Position numbers and translations under genes: made by a program. From contig NZ_CP011770.1 in the NCBI RefSeq assembly GCF_001028705.1, positions 3,165,501 to 3,229,500 on the forward strand: a stretch of DNA of 64,000 nucleotides, in the 5' to 3' direction. The stretch comes from Croceicoccus naphthovorans. GTDB taxonomy: Bacteria > Pseudomonadota > Alphaproteobacteria > Sphingomonadales > Sphingomonadaceae. The notes beneath the pieces were generated by a model. That model made no database searches and was not told the origin of the DNA. It was given only the letters and a program-made list of their open reading frames with translations. Positions 33,687-58,055 of the stretch are shown here, piece by piece. Each line of letters opens with the position of its first letter. The stretch's first letter is position 1.

Positions 33687-34124
33687 AGCGCAGCTCGCCC
33701 ACGGGATCTGCTTATTAGCGACCATGCGTCGATCATGGTCGGCTCGCGGGTCCGATCTGCGTTCCTGATACGCGCGATTCGGCAACGATGCGGAAGGGCG
33801 CCGTCCAGTAGGAGAGGCGCTTCCGCAAGAAGCTACAGAAACCACGCAAAACCAAGGAGAATCGGGGGGAGTTGAGCGCCAGGTGCTTCCGTGGCCAGCC
33901 GACGCTTCGAATGACCACGATTGCCGATGGCCGATAAGACACTGATATTTGAGGGAAAATTGGCGCACCCGACAGGATGAAAATGAGAACTGGCTGATCA
34001 TCGTGTGACTTTTGAAAATCATCGACAACGACAGATTTGCACCATCTTGGCCATGAGGGGCAGCCTCACGGCCCCTGAAACCGCTGCTCGCAAAGGTTTC
34101 CTTCCTACTCAGTTACGACGTAGA
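33687..34124. other. Spacer between the mutasome and the defence genes
   Basis: 438 bp without a convincing gene. Short leftward frames (for example FCSFLRKRLSYWTAPFRIVA at about 33760-33850) might be the remnant of a larger gene, but I cannot name it. Base composition changes here from GC-rich to more AT-rich, which suggests a cargo boundary. Confidence 0.5.
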
Positions 34125-48108: not shown

Positions 48109-49869
48109 ATGCACACGAACAACCATAACAACAGCAATTCGGAGCAGAAAAAATCGCTTCTCACACTTGAGCATTTGCGCGAATATTTGCTCGAATGCGA
48201 TTTGCCCACTTCGGAAATTGCCTTGCTCCGCTCTGCCATCAAACGCGTCGACGAGATTATCGGCCACGGCTTGCTGGACGTAACGGCCAACCAGCGCGTC
48301 ATCTTCGAGCGGCTGGGGCATGTATCTCCGGCAATGGCGGGCATGTCCGAGCAGTCCTTCGCCAACCTCAAGTCCCGTCTGCGCAAAGCGTTCCGTCTCG
48401 CCAGGGGCAGGCTGTTCAATCCGCGCTCGCGCTATCCGCTCACCGGCGATTGGGGCGCGTTGCAGGCAACGCTCGACACGAAAATGCAGCGCGCCACTTC
48501 CCGCCTGTTCCACTTCGCGTCAGGCCAGGGGGTGTTACCGCGCCATATGTCGGATGCCGTGATCGAACGGTTCGAGGCCCATCTGCGCGATGAGGCCATG
48601 ACCGGAAACTGGCTGGGCACGCTGCGTGGCAGTATCAGAGCATGGAACAAGGTCGCCGCCTCACGTGACGATCTTCCCCAACTCACGCCGCCTGAGCCCA
48701 AGCGAACCAGCTACTGGATCGATCAGGCCGAATGGCCGTCCACGCTGGTGGAGGAACTCGACGCCTTCCTCGCTTCGCTCGCTTCGACGGCCTGCTTTGA
48801 AAGCAAGAGTGCCAAGCCTCTGAAACCCGGTACGATCCAGCAATATCGTTTCAATGTAACGGTCATCGTCTCGGCTCTGGTTCACACCGGCACGTCCCTG
48901 TCGGAGCTGACGTCCCTTTCAGATGTGGTCAGGCCAGAACACGTCGATCGGAGCTTACGCTTCCTGCATGAACGCGCAGGCGGAACGATCACGCCTCAAA
49001 TGTTCCAGCTGGCATTGCGCGCTCGCACCATTGGTCGCTGGTGCGGCCTGCCCAATAACGAACTCGCCCGGCTGGACCAGATTTTTAAAAGCGTCCGGGA
49101 TCAGCGCGAACACAGGCGAGGCATGACCGCCAAGAACCGCGCCTTGCTCGACAAGCTCGACGATCAGCGGTTCGCCGATCAGTTGCAGCTTCTACCGTTC
49201 ATCCTGCTTGAGCGCGCCATGAAAAATCCGGACCGGCGCGGATCAGCCGCGCTCGCCCGAACCGCTATGGCGATCGAACTGCTGCTGGTGTGCAGCGTCC
49301 GCCGCGCCAATCTCGTCAGCCTCGAACTCGGCAAATCTATTCGGAAGATCGGCCACGGCAAGGATGCGTTCTGGATCATCGAGCATGACGGCGCAGAGGT
49401 GAAGAACAATGAAGACCTGCGCTTCAGGCTTCCCGATCAAACCGTGGCGCTGCTGGAAACCTATCTGCGCGACTGGCGGCCGAAACTCTGTCCCGATCCC
49501 TCGCCCTGGCTGTTCCCGGCGGCGGATGGGAACTGCATCGACCCTAAGACCATGGCCTATGCCATCGGTGCCCAATCAAAGCGCGTTCTGGGGGTGGCCA
49601 TCACACCGCATCAGTTCCGTCACATATCGGCGGAACTCTACCTGAAGGACAACCCCGAAGGCATTTTCACCGTCAGCCAGCATCTCGGGCACCGCGACAT
49701 CAATACGACCCGTCACTATTATGCCCGGCCCAAGCAGCGGCAGGCCTCCCGCCACTTCCAGGAGCATATTCTGCGCAGCCGCGACACCGCACGGATCAGG
49801 GTCAGGCGTAGCGTAAAGCCTCGTAAAGCCGTGGATTGCAGCTTCAACGAGGTGGAGGACGTGTTGTGA
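48109..49869 (+). CDS. Tyrosine recombinase, long form (586 residues)
   Basis: A phage-type integrase with all catalytic residues. The N-terminal ~330 residues hold helical DNA-binding parts (QSFANLKSRLRKAFRLARGR). Box I Arg is in LLLVCSVRRANLVSLELG; box II is PHQFRHISAELY (His, Arg) and QHLGHRDINTTRHYYARPK (His and nucleophile Tyr). The length is close to that of the larger enzyme of paired systems such as Tn554 TnpB. Upstream, a near-palindromic stretch ATACCCCAAATA ... TATATGGGGTTT (48030-48076) may be an operator. It overlaps the next recombinase by four bases. Confidence 0.92.
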   Translation: MHTNNHNNSNSEQKKSLLTLEHLREYLLECDLPTSEIALLRSAIKRVDEIIGHGLLDVTANQRVIFERLGHVSPAMAGMSEQSFANLKSRLRKAFRLARGRLFNPRSRYPLTGDWGALQATLDTKMQRATSRLFHFASGQGVLPRHMSDAVIERFEAHLRDEAMTGNWLGTLRGSIRAWNKVAASRDDLPQLTPPEPKRTSYWIDQAEWPSTLVEELDAFLASLASTACFESKSAKPLKPGTIQQYRFNVTVIVSALVHTGTSLSELTSLSDVVRPEHVDRSLRFLHERAGGTITPQMFQLALRARTIGRWCGLPNNELARLDQIFKSVRDQREHRRGMTAKNRALLDKLDDQRFADQLQLLPFILLERAMKNPDRRGSAALARTAMAIELLLVCSVRRANLVSLELGKSIRKIGHGKDAFWIIEHDGAEVKNNEDLRFRLPDQTVALLETYLRDWRPKLCPDPSPWLFPAADGNCIDPKTMAYAIGAQSKRVLGVAITPHQFRHISAELYLKDNPEGIFTVSQHLGHRDINTTRHYYARPKQRQASRHFQEHILRSRDTARIRVRRSVKPRKAVDCSFNEVEDVL

Positions 49870-50948
49870 GCACTCCTCTTTGCCTCAAGCCTCCCCAATG
49901 GCCCGCCGTTGACCAGTTGCGTTACCGTGAGGCCCGCGAGGCCAGAAGTTTTCTGGACGCTCCCAACCCCGCCAGCAAGTGGAGCGCGGCCCGCTGCCGC
50001 AATGTCGAGCAGGGGTACGGCCAGTGGCTGTCATTCCTCACCCGCAACGGCTGGCTCGATGCCGGAGCACCGCCCGAAACGAGAGTGACACCTGATCGCG
50101 TTCGCCTGTTCCTCATCCAGCTTCAGGACCGGGTCGCGTCCTGCAGCGTGGAAATGATCTTCGAGGGCTTCGCCCGGATGATCATGGCGATAGCTCCCAG
50201 CCAGGACTGGAACTGGCTGCGGACCGTCATCCGCAACCTCAAGGCCATTGCCAGGCCGGAAAAGGACAAGCGTGCCCACATGGTCGACGCCCGGCAGCTT
50301 TTGTCGCTGGGGGTCGATCTGATGGATCGGGCGCTCGAGATGGGTGATCGCTATCACGCTGCGACTTGCATGCGCGATGGCTTACTGATTGCTGTTCTTG
50401 CCTGCTGCCCTGTCAGGATCGCCAACCTGACGGCGATCGAGATCGGGCGGCATCTGCTATTCGACGGCGACCGCTACCTCCTCTTCTTCACCGAGGAGGA
50501 AACCAAGACCTCTCATCCCTATCAGGCCGAACTACCCCAGTCCCTCACCCCCTATATCGACGTCTGGTTGCGTGATCACCGCCGCAGACTGCTGATGCAG
50601 GGCGACGGGTCGAAAACCGACCGGCTGTGGATTGATCGCTGGGGGCAACCAATGGGAGATCGTTCGATCCGGGATCAAATCGAAAAGCGCACGAAGGACG
50701 CCTTCGGTCGTCATGTCTGGCCGCATCTAGCCCGCAGCATCGCGGCGAGCAGTTTCGTCGATCACGACCCTGACATGGTGGCGCTTGTGCCGGACCTCCT
50801 CGGCCACACCGATCACCAGACTGCACATAAATACTACATTCTCGCCGATGGAGCCCGCGCTCACGAAGCGGTGCAGTTGGCCTTCGAGGCGCGAAGAGCC
50901 GCCGCAGTGGCGCGGCTTACGGCGCGGAAGGAGCGCGAAGATGCCTGA
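49866..50948 (+). CDS. Tyrosine recombinase, second of a pair
   Basis: A 360-residue integrase, starting with GTG in the overlap GTGA. The SAM-like N-terminal domain (AARCRNVEQGYGQWLSFLTR) is followed by the catalytic domain with box I CCPVRIANLTAIEIG, the Lys strand TEEETKTSHPYQAELP, box II VWPHLARSIAASSF (His, Arg) and LLGHTDHQTAHKYYILA (His, Tyr). Both enzymes of the pair look active, so they probably act as a heteromeric recombinase. Confidence 0.92.
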   Translation: MSTPLCLKPPQWPAVDQLRYREAREARSFLDAPNPASKWSAARCRNVEQGYGQWLSFLTRNGWLDAGAPPETRVTPDRVRLFLIQLQDRVASCSVEMIFEGFARMIMAIAPSQDWNWLRTVIRNLKAIARPEKDKRAHMVDARQLLSLGVDLMDRALEMGDRYHAATCMRDGLLIAVLACCPVRIANLTAIEIGRHLLFDGDRYLLFFTEEETKTSHPYQAELPQSLTPYIDVWLRDHRRRLLMQGDGSKTDRLWIDRWGQPMGDRSIRDQIEKRTKDAFGRHVWPHLARSIAASSFVDHDPDMVALVPDLLGHTDHQTAHKYYILADGARAHEAVQLAFEARRAAAVARLTARKEREDA

Positions 50949-51065
50949 TAGCCTTGTGCAATTAATTGCTTTCGACCCGCGAAATCGAGCGAGTGGTACC
51001 ATCCTTGATCCACCCATTAAATCAGGCCTTGGTTGCCTCGGGGCAGTTCCCGTAGACAATGGGAG

Positions 51066-51308
51066 ATGGACGCCCAGCCTGCCTCCTGCCCCGTATCGAA
51101 GGGCCGCCCTGCGTCAAAGCGCAGTGGCCGGATCATTATCCGGCGCAGGCGGGCTGCGCCTTCCTCTCCGGTCAGGTTGCCAGTCGATGGACGGCAGGCA
51201 TTGGTCAGTGACCTTCCAGCAATCATGCCCGTGCTGCGCGACGAAGTGGCGATCCTGCGGGCCTATCTTGGCAGGGAGATCGACGCGATCCTGTTCGGCG
51301 AGGAGTGA
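51066..51308 (+). CDS. Small protein before the serine recombinase
   Basis: An 80-residue protein, ATG 51066, basic in the first half (KRSGRIIIRRRRAAPSSPVR) and ending LPAIMPVLRDEVAILRAYLG, REIDAILFGEE. It ends 6 bp before the serine recombinase. Similar short ORFs stand before large serine recombinases on related elements; function unknown. Confidence 0.55.
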   Translation: MDAQPASCPVSKGRPASKRSGRIIIRRRRAAPSSPVRLPVDGRQALVSDLPAIMPVLRDEVAILRAYLGREIDAILFGEE

Positions 51309-51314
51309 TCGACC

Positions 51315-53105
51315 ATGACGCGGGCGGCAATCTACGTCCGCGTATCAACCGCACGGCAGGCCGAGCGCGATCTGTCGATCCCCGATCAGATCGTCCAATG
51401 CCGCACATGGTGCGCTCGGCAGGGCATCGAGGTGGTGCAGGTCTTCTCCGAGCCGGGGGCTTCCGCCCTCGACGAAGATCGGCCCGTGTTCCAGGAGATG
51501 ATCCACACGGCGAAACGGACGGACAAGCCCTTTGATCTCGTTGTCGTGCATTCCCTGAGTCGGTTCAGCCGCGACTCGCTGCACTCCGAGCTTTATATCC
51601 GCGAGTTACGAAAAGCCGGGGTCGAACTGGTCTCCATCACGCAGGAGGTCGGACAAGACCCAACCGGTGAGATGTTCCGCAAGCTGCTGCACATCTTCGA
51701 CGAGCATCAGAGCCGGGAAACCGCCAAACACGTCCACCGCGCCATGTTGGAGAACGCTCGTCAGGGCTTCTGGAATGGTTCGCGACCGCCGTATGGCTAC
51801 GGCGTCGAGATCGCCGAGCGCCGAGGCAACAAGGACAAGAAAGTGCTGGTGGTCGACGAGGCCGAGGCGCGGGTCGTTCGGATGATCTTTGACATGGCCT
51901 CCGGCACCGAAGGCCGCCCGATGGGCGTGAAAGCCATCGCCACATGGCTCAACGAGCGCGGCCTCCTCCGGCGAGGACGCAGGTTCACGACCGGTGGCGT
52001 TCACGACATCCTGACCTCCACAACCTATCACGGGCTGCACCATTTCAACCGCACCGACAGCCGCAACGGTCGCCCACGCCCGCCGTCCGAATGGGTGCCG
52101 TTCGTGGTGCCCGCGATCATCGACGAAAAGACCTTCAACGCCGTGCAGGCTCTCCTGCAGAGCCGTGCGCCCAAACGAGTGGCCCCGCGCATCGTCAACT
52201 CCCCCACACTGCTGGCCAGAGTAGCCCGATGCGGCCATTGCGGGGCAGCTCTGATCCAGAACACCGGCAAGGGCGGGCAGTATCGCTATTACTGTTGCTC
52301 GACCCGTCTCAAGGAAGGCCCGTTCGGCTGCAAGGGACTGCGCATGCCGATGGACAAGCTCGATGACATTGTGATCGGCGAAGTATCGAAGCAGATATTG
52401 CAGCCGGATCACCTCGTCGCCCTGCTCGACGAATATCTGCGCACAGCGATCGAGCGCGAGGACCGCAACCGGGATCGCCTGCGTCAGATGCGCCAGGACC
52501 ATAAGGAAGCCGAGGCTGGTATCGCCCGGCTGCTGGAACTGGTCGAGAAGGGCCTCATGGACGCCGAGGATGCCTCGATGCGTGAGCGGCTGGTCAATCT
52601 GCGGTTCCGGCGCGACGAGCTTGCCGAACAGATTTCTGATCTGACCCGTCGCCTAGCGATGGCCGAGCCCATAATCACACCCGAGAAGATCGAGAAGGTT
52701 GCGCTGCTACTGCGTGAGAAGCTGCACAGCGGCCCGCCCGATCTGCGTCAAGCTTATGCCCGGCTGCTGCTCAACGAGGTCCGTGTCGACGATCGGGAAA
52801 TCCGCATCAGCGGCTCCAAGGCCGTGCTGGCCCGGAGCGCCGCAGGGGGCGTGGCCAAAACCACGCCCGCAGTTCTCTCTTTTGTTCGAGAATGGCGCAC
52901 TCGACAGGATTCGAACCTGTGGCCTCCGCCTTCGGGCAGCAGGGGAACAACAAGGAGGAAGGCAAGGCGAAGTCATGTTCCGCAATCGACGTCCTCGCAC
53001 CGATGTCGTCTGACAGGGGGCAACTTCGCGCGGCATTGCAAGGGGTCCGTGCAGTTGACTGGACACCGCTTGCCGCCGGACTCGATCGTGCCGAGGCTCT
53101 GCTGA
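51315..53105 (+). CDS. Large serine recombinase, C-terminus altered at att
   Basis: A serine integrase/resolvase. The catalytic domain starts RAAIYVRVSTARQAERDLSI with Ser11 as nucleophile, then VVVHSLSRFSRDSLHSELYI. The recombinase domain (GFWNGSRPPYGYGVEIAERR) follows, then the zinc ribbon (RCGHCGAALIQ, YYCCSTRLKEGPFGCKG) and a long coiled coil with Arg/Glu. From residue 527 the frame enters the tRNA-Arg repeat ([12 protein letters not shown] is tRNA sequence read as protein), so the last 70 residues are foreign. The natural end is probably near residue 525. Confidence 0.9.
   Translation: MTRAAIYVRVSTARQAERDLSIPDQIVQCRTWCARQGIEVVQVFSEPGASALDEDRPVFQEMIHTAKRTDKPFDLVVVHSLSRFSRDSLHSELYIRELRKAGVELVSITQEVGQDPTGEMFRKLLHIFDEHQSRETAKHVHRAMLENARQGFWNGSRPPYGYGVEIAERRGNKDKKVLVVDEAEARVVRMIFDMASGTEGRPMGVKAIATWLNERGLLRRGRRFTTGGVHDILTSTTYHGLHHFNRTDSRNGRPRPPSEWVPFVVPAIIDEKTFNAVQALLQSRAPKRVAPRIVNSPTLLARVARCGHCGAALIQNTGKGGQYRYYCCSTRLKEGPFGCKGLRMPMDKLDDIVIGEVSKQILQPDHLVALLDEYLRTAIEREDRNRDRLRQMRQDHKEAEAGIARLLELVEKGLMDAEDASMRERLVNLRFRRDELAEQISDLTRRLAMAEPIITPEKIEKVALLLREKLHSGPPDLRQAYARLLLNEVRVDDREIRISGSKAVLARSAAGGVAKTTPAVLSFVREWRTRQDSNLWPPPSGSRGTTRRKARRSHVPQSTSSHRCRLTGGNFARHCKGSVQLTGHRLPPDSIVPRLC
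52893..52935 (-). repeat. att repeat: 3' part of tRNA-Arg(CCG)
   Basis: 43 bp identical to 57767-57809, covering the tRNA from its CCA end to the anticodon. The identity stops exactly after the anticodon, the usual crossover zone of tRNA-directed integrases. It marks the end of the large element next to its recombinase genes, and also the distal end of the lasso island. Confidence 0.92.
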
Positions 53106-53212
53106 CGGCCTCCTCAACGCCGAGGGAGCAGATCATCTATGTTGTGTCAGATGGCGAAGAGACCTGCGGCGGCGATCCCGTGACCTCCGCCCGACGCATC
53201 GACAGCGGTCGC
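52936..53212 (+). pseudogene. von Willebrand factor A domain gene fragment
   Basis: The first bases after the att repeat continue a reading frame with VWA-protein sequence: GQQGNNKEEGKAKSCSAIDV, then TPLAAGLDRAEALL and QIIYVVSDGEETCGGDPVTS. The IIYVVSDGEETCGGDP motif is typical of periplasmic VWA proteins. There is no start, and similarity ends near 53200. It looks like a gene interrupted at the att crossover. Confidence 0.75.
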
Positions 53213-53583
53213 GCGCCGTCGATGCCGCAGGATGGATGGAGATCTGCCCACACCCGTTCCTATACGCGTCAGTTCGCCAAGGCCAGGGCCGGACAACCGT
53301 GACCCGTTCATTCAGGCACCTCGATCAGCTTAACCTTATGGGCCGTGCGCCGCCGATGGTCGCTGAAGCGCTCCCCGTTGCGGCTCTCGGTTCGGACACC
53401 ATTGCGTTTCCAAGGCTTGCAAAGTTTGCAGCCGCTCCGCTGGTTCCGCGACCTTTTTCTTTTGCAATGCATCGAGGTTGTCATCTTTCTGTCGCAAGCG
53501 AGGCGCCGTTCGTTTGTTCTTGACTCTCATACATCGTTTTGGATGATTAACCACGACATCCATCGCCCAGGGGGGATCAATAC
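53213..53583. other. Region before the lasso precursor
   Basis: About 370 bp without a clear gene; open frames give Arg/Pro-rich products with no family. It ends with the probable lasso promoter (53520-53548) and a strong ribosome site AGGGGGG, 7 bp before the precursor ATG. Confidence 0.5.
53520..53548 (+). promoter_or_regulatory. Probable promoter of the lasso cluster
   Basis: TTGACT (53520-53525), 17 bp, ATGATT (53543-53548), 35 bp upstream of the precursor start codon. The -10 box is a weak match. Confidence 0.45.
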
Positions 53584-53700
53584 ATGACGTTTCTTCGCGC
53601 GCTGTTTCAGGCTCTGTTCTGTCATCACGCGGCTGCCGGCGCCGTTCGCGGGGGCAGCGGCCACTTCAACGAACAATGCCACCCCGGCACCTATAACTGA
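53584..53700 (+). CDS. Lasso peptide precursor
   Basis: A 38-residue peptide that I read as a lasso precursor. The leader is MTFLRALFQALFCHHAAAGA-VR (22 residues) and the predicted core GGSGHFNEQCHPGTYN (16 residues). Gly1 could form the isopeptide bond with Glu8, giving an 8-residue ring; the ring pattern GGxGHxxE equals that of microcin J25. The tail Q-C-H-P-G-T-Y-N has a single Cys at position 10. The penultimate leader residue is Val, where Thr is usual. A strong ribosome site precedes it, and the B and cyclase genes follow directly. Not found by length-limited gene callers. Confidence 0.82.
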   Translation: MTFLRALFQALFCHHAAAGAVRGGSGHFNEQCHPGTYN

Positions 53701-53797
53701 ACGGAAAGCGGCCGCTGAAAGCTGGTCGCCTGTCAGGATAGATGACCGCCGCTGCCTGATTTACGGGCCGCGGTTCGGAAAACTGTACCTGCTCTCT

Positions 53798-54310
53798 GTG
53801 GAACGCCTTGGAGACAGGGTGTTTCGCCAGGTGATCGGCTTGTCCGGTCCAGACGACGCAGCACTCGCCGATCCATCCGACCGCGTTGGCTGGTCGCTTG
53901 CGAGCCAGGGCGACGATCTTCGCCCTGGGTCCGGATGGCGGATGCGGTTGGCCTATCACCTCCTTCATCATTCGCGTCATGGCCTGCCGTTCAGGCTGAG
54001 TGCGAAGCTGATCGGGCTGGCAGCGAGCCGTTCAGCAAGCCATCCGCACGGCGGGCAGAACACGGTAGAAGCGATCGCGCGTGCGGTTGCCGCCACGGAA
54101 GATGCCGTCGGATTCTCCGATTGCTATCCTCGCGCCTTGCTTACCGCTTGGCTGGCGCTTGCCGCGGGCAACTCCTGTGTTCTGGCGATCGGTGTGCTGG
54201 CGCCGACGCGAAAGTTGCACGCCTGGTGCACGGTCGCCGGTGTCCTGCCGTTCGAGCCGGTGGCAGAGCATTATCTTTATCAACCGGCCTGGACCATCAC
54301 GCTGCCCTGA
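53798..54310 (+). CDS. Lasso peptide B protein (leader recognition and protease)
   Basis: At least 170 residues. The C-terminal transglutaminase-like protease domain has the catalytic Cys in GFSDCYPRALLTAWLA and His in KLHAWCTVAGVLPFEPVAEH. It removes the leader so that the cyclase can act. The N-terminal part looks like the leader-binding (PqqD-like) domain. The same frame is open upstream with domain-like sequence (WSPVRIDDRRCLIYGPRFGK from about 53731), but no ATG, GTG or TTG occurs before the GTG at 53798. The real start may be CTG or ATA, or a base may be missing. The stop shares a base with the cyclase ATG (TGATG). Confidence 0.85.
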   Translation: MERLGDRVFRQVIGLSGPDDAALADPSDRVGWSLASQGDDLRPGSGWRMRLAYHLLHHSRHGLPFRLSAKLIGLAASRSASHPHGGQNTVEAIARAVAATEDAVGFSDCYPRALLTAWLALAAGNSCVLAIGVLAPTRKLHAWCTVAGVLPFEPVAEHYLYQPAWTITLP

Positions 54311-55860
54311 TGCCGGCCTTTTTTCGCCCAACCACAACGAATGTCGAAATTGGAGACGCCGAACTCGAGGTCCGCACTTCGGTCGCCACCCGGCACGTCA
54401 CGCTACCGGGCTGCGGCATCACCTATCTGTGCCTCTATGACGATGAAATCGATCAGCGGACCGAACTCTTCATCAGGCGCTTGGCGATGGCCGGCACGGA
54501 AGCGATCGCGCCTTATCTTGAACTGACCGACATCGCCTTCATTGTGCGGCATGATGGCAGTTTGTCGGTTATGCGCGGCGGAGCGTGCCCGATTGCACTC
54601 TATTACTGCCCAACCGAGAAGGGGCTGCGCTTCACAACCGCCCTGCCCGTCGCGAACACTTCACGCCTTTCCCGGCGTGGAATCATCATGGTCGTCGCCG
54701 CAGCGTGCCAGCACTCTTCTTATGAGCCGAACGCTTTCACCGAAACGCCAGTCGCCGGATGGCACCGGGTGCGTCGCGCCTCGATCAACCATTTCGTCGC
54801 GAACCGGCTCGAACGCTGCGAACTCATCGATGGACGACCGGTCCGCACAGTGAGCCGGGAAGAGATTGCCGCAGAGGTCCGTGCGGCATTCATGGCGTAC
54901 GGGAATTCGCAGGCCGGGATCACCAGATCGGTCCTGGAGGTTTCAGGCGGATTCGATAGCACGCTTGCCGCGACCACACTGATGGCGCGGCAGGACATGC
55001 ACGGCATCTCATCGGTCTATCCCTATTATGAGTTCCGCGACGAGGTCGAAGTGCAAGCGGGTGTCGCTGGAGAACTTGGAATTCCCCGCACTATCCTCGA
55101 CGGCACAACGCTTTTCCCCTACGCGCCCAGCGACGAGCCTGTGCGCTGGGACGAGCCGTCGGTCTATGTAACCGGCATCCGCCATGCCGAGCAGGTTGCG
55201 CGCTTCGCCAGTCGGCACCATGCACAGCGCATCTATATGGGGCATGGCGGGGACCAATGCTTCGCGACGGATCTGACCTCAAGGGAAGGACTTGTCCGCA
55301 ATCCACCGGGGCGAGGACCGTTTTCAGCGCGAAGCTGGGCCATTGTTTCCGCAGCCACAAAGGCCACTAACGCATCGCCCTGGATGGCCCGGTCAGCCGG
55401 CACGTTCGTCTATGACGCGCGGCAGGACCTATGGGTCAAGGAACGATATGGCGTCACCATCAGGACGCCGTTTTCCGATCTGCGCATATTTCAGGCAGGT
55501 CAGCTCTGGTCGGAGCACTCGGCGGCAAGGGGCAAGCGGCCCGACAAATCGATCCTGGTGGATGCGCTGGGCAGCTATCTTCCCGACGCCGTTGTCCGGC
55601 GGAAGGGCAAGACGGCCTATGACGGCGTTTGGATGCGCGCTTATGAACGCCATGCCACTCATATTGCCGATTGTTTCGATCGCGCCGCCGCCACGCTGGG
55701 GCATCTGGGCATTTCCGCAACATGGTTGATTCGCAGGACCCGCGCGCTTGGTGCCTGGAAGCCCGTGTCGGACAGGGAAGTGCTGGCGCTCTACGCGGTC
55801 GCGTTCTGGATTCTGGCTTGGGAACTTGACCGACCGGAGGAGCTTTGCTGGGCGCCGTGA
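54310..55860 (+). CDS. Lasso cyclase (asparagine synthase-like C protein)
   Basis: A 516-residue protein of the McjC type. It lacks an N-terminal Cys, so the glutaminase-like half is not catalytic. The ATP-pyrophosphatase loop VSGGFDSTLA is at residues 211-220, and YMGHGGDQCFATDLTS and RRKGKTAYDGVWMRAYERHA are later synthetase motifs. It adenylates the Glu8 side chain and joins it to Gly1. Its last 70 bp overlap the convergent DUF6445 gene. No transporter, isopeptidase or TonB receptor gene follows, unlike most proteobacterial lasso clusters. Confidence 0.92.
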   Translation: MPAFFRPTTTNVEIGDAELEVRTSVATRHVTLPGCGITYLCLYDDEIDQRTELFIRRLAMAGTEAIAPYLELTDIAFIVRHDGSLSVMRGGACPIALYYCPTEKGLRFTTALPVANTSRLSRRGIIMVVAAACQHSSYEPNAFTETPVAGWHRVRRASINHFVANRLERCELIDGRPVRTVSREEIAAEVRAAFMAYGNSQAGITRSVLEVSGGFDSTLAATTLMARQDMHGISSVYPYYEFRDEVEVQAGVAGELGIPRTILDGTTLFPYAPSDEPVRWDEPSVYVTGIRHAEQVARFASRHHAQRIYMGHGGDQCFATDLTSREGLVRNPPGRGPFSARSWAIVSAATKATNASPWMARSAGTFVYDARQDLWVKERYGVTIRTPFSDLRIFQAGQLWSEHSAARGKRPDKSILVDALGSYLPDAVVRRKGKTAYDGVWMRAYERHATHIADCFDRAAATLGHLGISATWLIRRTRALGAWKPVSDREVLALYAVAFWILAWELDRPEELCWAP

Positions 55861-56441
55861 TCCCGGGTAGCAATATCGAAGAAGAAATTCTGAAACAGCC
55901 TGCCGTTCTCCAACCGGTCGCCGAAATAGGCGCTCGCGCCATGGGCGAGATGCGCGTCGAACAGGACCAGGCGGTTATAGATATTGCTGATCCGGTCGAT
56001 CTCCTCCCAGTGCCCGCGGTCGAATTCCGCATCGCTCCCGAAGGTCAAGGCCATCAGTGCGGCGTCGCTGGACCGTCGGCGCAGACCGCTCCGGCGCCCG
56101 CGGAAGAAAGACAGGCCCGCTCCCAGCGGGGCGTCGGGGGTAAGAAACAGGACGCCTGCATAAGACTGACTGTCGGAATGATACGGGATGGCATCGTTGG
56201 CGAAGCAAACCTGGAATCGCCCGTTGGCGGTATTGTCGTCCCAATGCGCCAACTGATGACCGAGCAAATCCTCGAACCTTTGGCGATAGGGCGCCAGATG
56301 CAGGAAACGCGCCTCGGTACGCAGGCCGGCGCTGTGCATTTTGACATAGGGCTGCCTGAGCGCCGTCGCCCGCACGCCGTCGGGATCTGTCAGAAAGTCA
56401 TCGACGACGATGATCTGCGGGCCGGTGCTATCAACGACCAT
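55791..56441 (-). CDS. DUF6445 family, 2-oxoglutarate/Fe(II) oxygenase-like
   Basis: A 216-residue protein with a double-stranded beta-helix oxygenase pattern. IPYHSDSQSYAGVLFLTPDA gives an H-x-D, and YNRLVLFDAHLAHGASAYFG the distal His; GRLFQNFFFDI follows. PLGAGLSFFRGRRSG is the DUF6445 signature. Such enzymes are known among hydroxylases acting on peptides or small molecules. It is convergent with the cyclase and overlaps it by 70 bp, so the two have been together for some time, and a role in tailoring the peptide is possible. Confidence 0.75.
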   Translation of the reverse strand: MVVDSTGPQIIVVDDFLTDPDGVRATALRQPYVKMHSAGLRTEARFLHLAPYRQRFEDLLGHQLAHWDDNTANGRFQVCFANDAIPYHSDSQSYAGVLFLTPDAPLGAGLSFFRGRRSGLRRRSSDAALMALTFGSDAEFDRGHWEEIDRISNIYNRLVLFDAHLAHGASAYFGDRLENGRLFQNFFFDIATRDHGAQQSSSGRSSSQARIQNATA

Positions 56442-56621
56442 TGTTCCTTCCTTCCGCGAGCTACCTCCAAGGTGCCAGTTTATCTTTCGCGTAATCCTCA
56501 GACATGCTGACCACGATCGCGTGGTGAAGATTCACCTGAAGCGTTCTTCGAAATACGCATACCACATTCGTTGAAGCGCAGCGGGTTGCGGCAGAGTTGC
56601 ACAAGCGCGGCACTCGTCCCC

Positions 56622-57329
56622 TCATCGGGGCGGTGAGCAGGGCTTTCCTTCATATTCATGCCGGTGGAGCTTGTATTCACCCCCGCTCCAGCGAACCACT
56701 GGAAAACAGAACCCCGGTCCGCCGACCTGAATGTCGGGAAAATTGTCCGAACCTCTTGTCGCAAGCAACTCGGGAATTCCGATGCCGGCCGTCATAACCT
56801 TCCATTGGCCGTTCGGCTGCCGGGTCAACAACTGGAAGCTCAAACCCGACATGCCGAAGCAGATCGCGCCGCCTTCAGTCACGATGACCTCGGGCCGGCC
56901 ATCACCATTGATGTCTTCGATTGTCCCTATTGCACCGGCCTCATAGGACGCCCCCGCCGGCGGGTCTCCGCATGTGCCGCTTTCCCATTGTCGGCGCTTC
57001 TGTACATAGGTGAAACCTGCGGCCTGGAAGATGCTTCGCATCTCTGAGCTAACGCCATCCAAAGAAGCGCCCGAAGTTGACGAGCCGGCAACGGAATTGG
57101 CTTCCACGCTTGCCGCCGCGACACGATCAGCGGCGGCTGAAGTGGGCTCCGCCCCGGCTGATGAAGCGGGCGCCGCCAGGGCGATCCTTTCCGGCGAAGT
57201 TCCCGCTTCACTACCGCCGCCACCTGCAATTTCCTCACTCGTCGCACTCCGGCCCGATTGGCCGCCACAGGCCGTCAACGCCAAAGCAACCACCAGGGGA
57301 CCCAGTTTCCGGTCGAAGGATTTTATCAT
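56622..57329 (-). CDS. Lipoprotein with an FG-GAP/VCBS-like segment
   Basis: A 235-residue lipoprotein. The signal peptide MIKSFDRKLGPLVVALALTACGG contains the lipobox LTAC. An Ala/Ser/Gly-rich linker (residues 25-95) leads to a C-terminal domain with GTIEDINGDGRPEVIVTEGG, the calcium-binding DxNxDGxxD loop seen in integrin-like repeats. Similar proteins are common in Sphingomonadales. No link to lasso biosynthesis is apparent apart from location. Confidence 0.75.
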   Translation of the reverse strand: MIKSFDRKLGPLVVALALTACGGQSGRSATSEEIAGGGGSEAGTSPERIALAAPASSAGAEPTSAAADRVAAASVEANSVAGSSTSGASLDGVSSEMRSIFQAAGFTYVQKRRQWESGTCGDPPAGASYEAGAIGTIEDINGDGRPEVIVTEGGAICFGMSGLSFQLLTRQPNGQWKVMTAGIGIPELLATRGSDNFPDIQVGGPGFCFPVVRWSGGEYKLHRHEYEGKPCSPPR

Positions 57330-57766
57330 TTGCCCACCTCTGCACTGCTCTACGGCTTTACCGCCGCCTGTCCTCAGTTCCATGACAATAATACTGGCGT
57401 TGCCATCAAGCGATTGCCGAACGGCACGACCTCGGCACTGTCGTAAAGGCTCGCCCCGAAGGCGAAAGCGATTTCTGCAGGCCTCGGCGAGCGCTCGCAA
57501 ACCGACGAAATCGTCGGTCTTAACTGTTGCGCGATCGCGACGCCGAGACAGGTGTCTCAAATCTCCGGCTGAAATCCAGGAACTCTCCACTGATAGCGCC
57601 GTCGATTCGCGAGCAACCGCGCCGCCGAGGACTGAAGATTCGTAAACTATTGAAATTGAGGGGGTTTGGTGGAAATTGCTGCTTCCGCGACTGCTTCCGT
57701 GGTGGAAATTGCGCTGGAGGCCGCACAAGACGCCTGATTCAAGCGTTTGATTTCTAAGGGGAAATT
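57330..57766. other. Intergenic region next to the tRNA
   Basis: About 440 bp with no gene recognised. It holds one copy of a 17-bp repeat (57688-57704), also found on the other side of the tRNA, and several CTTCCG-type motifs, which could be integrase arm sites. Confidence 0.5.
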
Positions 57767-57903
57767 TGGCGCACTCGACAGGATTCGAACCTGTGGCCTC
57801 CGCCTTCGGAGGGCGGCGCTCTATCCAGCTGAGCTACGAGTGCATCCGGTCCCCCTTAGTTGGGGGCTCGAAAATCGTCAATCTGCCGACTGCTTCCGTG
57901 GTG
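57688..57903 (+). repeat. 17-bp direct repeat on both sides of the tRNA
   Basis: CGACTGCTTCCGTGGTG occurs at 57688-57704 and 57887-57903. GCTTCCGCGA also occurs next to each copy (57681-57690 and 57903-57912), in reversed order. The region therefore carries four or five related GCTTCCG blocks around the tRNA gene. Confidence 0.75.
57767..57843 (-). tRNA. tRNA-Arg (anticodon CCG)
   Basis: A 77-nt tRNA with encoded CCA. Acceptor stem GCACTCG pairs with CGAGTGC; the D arm is GCTCAGCTGGATAGAGC; the anticodon stem CCGCC/GGCGG encloses CTCCGAA with anticodon CCG (+ strand 57807-57809); the T arm is CAGGTTCGAATCCTG. It reads CGG codons. The left (3') half is duplicated at 52893-52935, so this gene is the integration target. 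Confidence 0.97.

Positions 57904-58010: not shown

Positions 58011-58055
<45 letters not shown>

Follow-up and report, generated by a model that had tools for sequence, protein, structure and literature searches.

A mobile four-gene lasso peptide cluster with a putative oxygenase gene in Croceicoccus naphthovorans

We analyzed 64,000 nucleotides of the alphaproteobacterium Croceicoccus naphthovorans (contig NZ_CP011770.1, positions 3,165,501 to 3,229,500; hereafter the window, in whose own numbering positions are given) and found there a mobile cluster of four genes, in which a precursor gene (A), a leader peptidase gene (B) and a macrolactam cyclase gene (C) are joined by a gene encoding a DUF6445 protein. 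We consider it roughly 60% probable that the product of this cluster is an oxidised class II lasso peptide. A sequence-only reading had already recognized a lasso cluster made up of a 38-residue open reading frame (ORF), B and C in tight order, all of which is borne out by the translations and by the family cut-offs passed. The extent it gave, 53584..55860, does contain A, B and C, but the unit common to the window and its distant relatives is A-B-C-DUF6445 and reaches 56441. Right on the lasso core, that reading passed over the DUF6445 gene, the signs of mobility and the lack of an ordinary start codon in B.

A near-invariant core with lasso-type peptidase and cyclase genes

The ORF at 53584-53700 translates as MTFLRALFQALFCHHAAAGAVRGGSGHFNEQCHPGTYN, and its predicted core is GGSGHFNEQCHPGTYN. 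A single scan for exact short peptide patterns across the genomes of 84,980 species, by which distant relatives are missed, brought up 18 candidate stretches, and five of these are relatives of the cluster. In three of them, from Sphingopyxis indica (L010), Aurantiacibacter xanthus (L011) and an Erythrobacter metagenome-assembled genome (MAG; L012), C is 99-100% identical to that of the window, and the bases over 53501-56500 differ from it at 1, 1 and 37 positions, respectively. The other two, from MAGs assigned to Gammaproteobacteria (L013) and Burkholderiales (L014), are distant, with C identities of 53% and 54%, and retain the A-B-C order.

The three distinct precursors (window, L013 and L014) can be aligned without gaps, giving the core consensus GG[SG]GH[FY]NEQCHPGTY[NG]. 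Invariant columns amount to 13/16 in the core versus 7/22 in the leader (Fisher p 0.0036). All three precursors share Val(-2), Cys10 and, as in lasso-type cores with a small first residue and Asp/Glu at positions 7-9, Gly1 and Glu8. At the level of sequence, the core boundary, Gly1-Glu8 ring, 8-residue tail, free Cys and Val(-2) proposed earlier hold up, being kept in two distant relatives. The match of the cores is not merely a matter of recent descent, because 16/21 (L013) and 13/29 (L014) of the codons of A that specify the same amino acid as in the window differ silently. Since both distant relatives retain the gene order and the core with such silent changes in A, the cluster is beyond chance.

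Among the distinct copies, the core is 81-94% identical at B identities of 43-51%, whereas a control group from another lasso-like cluster, with B identities of 38-43%, shows 31-44% identity over the last 16 residues. This control is weak: among 30 loci (L053-L082), each with a homologue of B from a different lasso-like sphingomonad cluster, three yielded accepted precursor-like ORFs (L053-L055, one being the own genome) whose status as lasso precursors is uncertain, while the ORF of L073 was left unused and other pattern matches were discarded by eye. A core kept nearly constant while half the sequence of its own enzymes has changed points to a constant biological partner, one open to a search. 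Such near-invariance suggests a single fixed target or ligand, be it a receptor or a metal (copper or iron, for example), rather than the role of an antibiotic shaped by an arms race. It is a speculative extension, which we consider doubtful, that the horizontally spread, DUF6445-oxidised peptide with its fixed His/Cys core is a conserved metal-binding or signalling molecule across proteobacterial classes.

B scores 36.7 bits against the NCBI model lasso_biosyn_B2 (cut-off 33), as a lasso peptidase domain should, and 35.9 bits against Transglut_core3 (cut-off 26); a B protein without homologues in lasso clusters, named by the sequence-only reading as a case against itself, is thus not what was found. 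The three B proteins have in common a Cys, a His and, 12 residues beyond the His, a Glu, and this Glu may be the third catalytic residue. C scores 36.8 bits against Pfam Asn_synthase (cut-off 21), in line with an asparagine synthase-type cyclase, and the SGGFDS motif is present in the alignment; against the specific lasso cyclase models of NCBI its scores are under the cut-offs. At E values up to 1, lasso_biosyn_B2 and Asn_synthase are matched by all three aligned B and all three aligned C proteins, respectively.

The DUF6445 gene next to the cyclase gene

C is adjoined by the DUF6445 gene in 6/6 genomes, each with a single profile match. The DUF6445 protein of the window is 75% identical to the copies of L013 and L014, and its dN is about 0.19, compared with 0.43-0.58 for B and C. 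H88, D90, H167 and R181 are invariant in 7/7 aligned DUF6445 sequences, four of them from cyanophages, and belong to 33 invariant columns. The alignment therefore shows the H-x-D...H...R pattern, an HxD...H facial triad with a distal Arg, which is the signature of Fe/2-oxoglutarate (Fe/2OG) oxygenases. Because DUF6445 adjoins C in every one of these genomes, is that similar in the distant pair and keeps this pattern, it is probably an Fe/2OG oxygenase, and the peptide of the cluster is therefore probably oxidised. A lasso Fe/2OG hydroxylase that acts on the linear precursor, CanE, is described in PMC9266682. If the putative oxygenase acts on the peptide, DUF6445 would be a new lasso tailoring enzyme and could guide genome mining.

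We envisage that the oxygenase would hydroxylate the linear precursor, whose leader would be bound by the N-terminal part of B, and that the Cys-His(-Glu) peptidase of B would then cut after Val-Arg/Lys. C would activate Glu8 with ATP and join it to Gly1, and this ring closure would trap the 8-residue tail with the free Cys10 and His11, producing the presumed lasso topology. For the window core minus one water, the calculated mass is 1685.664 Da ([M+2H]2+ 843.839, rising to 851.837 if one oxygen is added).

Relatives of DUF6445 occur in 6 cyanophage records at 37-45% identity. In the cyanophages L099-L102, DUF6445-like proteins are labelled, for example, methyltransferase or minor coat protein, and the one in L099 forms the end of a longer gene.

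Alternative readings and comparison with known systems

Several observations weigh against an oxidised lasso peptide from this cluster. A PDB sequence search with DUF6445 gave no match, Pfam classes it as a family of unknown function, PHROGs label its relatives 'minor coat protein', and the gene is transcribed opposite to C. This convergent orientation, as well as the cyanophage relatives with no lasso cluster in view, would suit an ordinary lasso cluster in which DUF6445 is a passenger with another substrate; we regard this as unlikely, because the gene stays beside C although the sequences outside the cluster are not the same in the window, L013 and L014, and because it is more conserved than B and C. 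The two distant copies lie on MAG contigs, whose taxon labels may be wrong. Of the features usual but not universal in lasso precursors, Thr(-2) is replaced by Val(-2) in 3/3 precursors, and no YxxP or YxxPxL leader motif was seen in the three aligned precursors. The B frame of the window has no ATG, GTG or TTG upstream of 53798, which itself lies inside the conserved N-terminal part, and its start stretch is identical in L010-L012, so that they too are devoid of an ordinary start, whereas B starts with ATG in L013 and probably with GTG in L014. Judged from the sequences, this makes it less likely that the sphingomonad copies are fully functional; they might have decayed to the point that B is translated poorly or not at all and no peptide is made in these hosts. 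Such decay seems improbable to us, since the frames of C, DUF6445 and the catalytic portion of B are complete and uninterrupted and in-frame ATA, CTG or ATT codons (ATC is a further candidate) could serve as the start of B.

The resemblance to the microcin J25 cluster (mcjABCD) consists of the A, B and C genes, the GGxGHxxE ring pattern, which McjA also matches, and the 8-residue ring. The cluster of the window differs in its 8-residue tail with a free Cys, its short leader with Val(-2) and its DUF6445 gene, and no D-type ABC transporter was found among the 34 window frames scanned with Pfam, which are part of the window ORFs. Alignment by hhalign was marginal both to McjC (probability 2.3%, E 0.02, 102 columns) and to McjB (1.2%, E 0.044, 25 columns), and close kinship beyond motifs was rejected. 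The description as microcin J25-like hence holds for the ring pattern and fails for the enzymes. Although the shared ring pattern would fit an RNA polymerase inhibitor of the microcin J25 type, such a product is very improbable given the different tail, the marginally similar enzymes and the absence of any exporter family among the scanned frames. No transporter, isopeptidase or TonB-receptor family appeared there, as the sequence-only reading had noted; its claim that export 'must differ' went beyond this finding, as the exporter may be unlinked.

The preferred reading, an oxidised lasso peptide made by the four genes, has a precedent in the canucin A cluster of Streptomyces canus, which carries an Fe/2OG oxygenase gene, CanE. 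According to PMC9266682, that cluster is actinobacterial, has B split into B1 and B2 and oxidises a C-terminal Asp. Lasso clusters with Ile/Val(-2) have been reported (PMC10368454), for example bsf of Bradymonas and others in Sphingomonadales; those described there carry a kinase or phosphotransferase gene and have YxxPxL in the leader. The window cluster agrees with them in its non-Thr penultimate leader residue, but neither a kinase nor YxxPxL was seen in it. No paper in the PMC library contains the core strings or DUF6445, and among the papers listed there in further lasso searches, which do not cover subscription papers, no such cluster shows. On sequence grounds, the cluster, set apart by its fixed core and putative oxygenase, is likely to represent a new lasso subfamily with a new tailoring enzyme. 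Val(-2), the short hydrophobic leader and the free Cys would broaden the known substrate range of B and C enzymes.

Mobile setting and distribution

The cluster lies in a 4.9-kb stretch between a repeat and a tRNA-Arg gene (Table 1). The repeat is identical at 43/43 positions to the 3' end of the tRNA. Further on, at 58011-58055, is a remnant of the tRNA 5' half, and a 45-base copy (96%) is located at contig position 3114158. Two phage-type integrases and a serine recombinase stand in a row at 48109-53105, the last frame crossing the repeat at 52893. In L010 and L012 the cassette abuts sequence that corresponds to window position 33978. Both thus lack the element of 34-52.9 kb that carries these three genes, while L011 retains its recombinase side. 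The sequences flanking the cluster in L013 and L014 differ both from those of the window and from each other, L014 ending just behind DUF6445, and A-B-C-DUF6445 is therefore the shared part.

Table 1 Features of the cluster and its surroundings (window positions)
Feature	Position	Strand	Basis and remarks
A, 38-residue precursor (22-residue leader, 16-residue core)	53584..53700	+	ORF translation and precursor alignment
Core of A, predicted ring Gly1-Glu8	53650..53697	+	Precursor alignment, codon comparison; ring inferred
B, leader peptidase open frame	53588..54310	+	Profile matches, alignment; start codon unclear; homology to relatives from near 53723
C, asparagine-synthase-like macrolactam cyclase, 516 aa	54310..55860	+	Asn_synthase match, alignment; ATG overlaps the B stop
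DUF6445 protein, 216 aa, probable Fe/2OG oxygenase	55791..56441	-	Pfam match, alignments; convergent with C, overlaps its last 70 bases
Promoter-like site TTGACT-16-GATGAT, upstream of A	53520..53547	+	Pattern search
43-bp direct repeat of tRNA-Arg 3' end, left boundary	52893..52935	.	Repeat comparison
tRNA-Arg (CCG), right boundary	57767..57843	-	tRNA call, repeat comparison
Remnant of tRNA-Arg 5' half	58011..58055	.	Sequence comparison; contiguous with the tRNA in congener loci L084-L086

Eight of the 15 loci at this tRNA-Arg were inspected; seven had no cassette match in about 1.5 kb beyond the tRNA, and the eighth (L087) was uninformative, its contig beginning at the tRNA. By single-protein search C was not found in 13/13 congeners. 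Matches of any strength occurred in 1/98 and 5/397 genomes by single-protein searches and in 7/398, 5/399 and 14/246 by profile searches, these samples being overlapping and not independent. Scores above 100 bits were confined to the own genome and two sampled genomes, G443 and G442, the others lying at 18-36 bits. In a 196-genome sample, DUF6445 had a weak match in one genome besides G442, and the core pattern occurred in 1/120 genomes, namely G443. A plasmid home was rejected, as C, DUF6445 and the cassette DNA had no match in plasmids. So was a phage home: no relative was found in viral contigs by the C profile, the DUF6445 profile or the core pattern, and only DUF6445 alone matches cyanophage records.

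The promoter-like pattern upstream of A is at chance level (1 occurrence versus 1.1 on average in shuffled sequence); in L013 and L014, comparable sites ahead of A were spotted by eye. Within the cassette, a partial vWA-like frame (52892-53302) and a weak FG-GAP-repeat protein (56622-57728) score below the Pfam cut-offs. The window belongs to a 3.54-Mb contig of a 3.86-Mb genome that has three further Transglut_core3 places, all above cut-off, two of which have equal scores and, should the contig ends overlap, may represent a single place. Another lasso-like cluster with a B homologue is present in the same genome on contig 1 near 306470 (L003 1197-3138), accompanied by PqqD-like, kinase-like and precursor-like ORFs that were named by eye.
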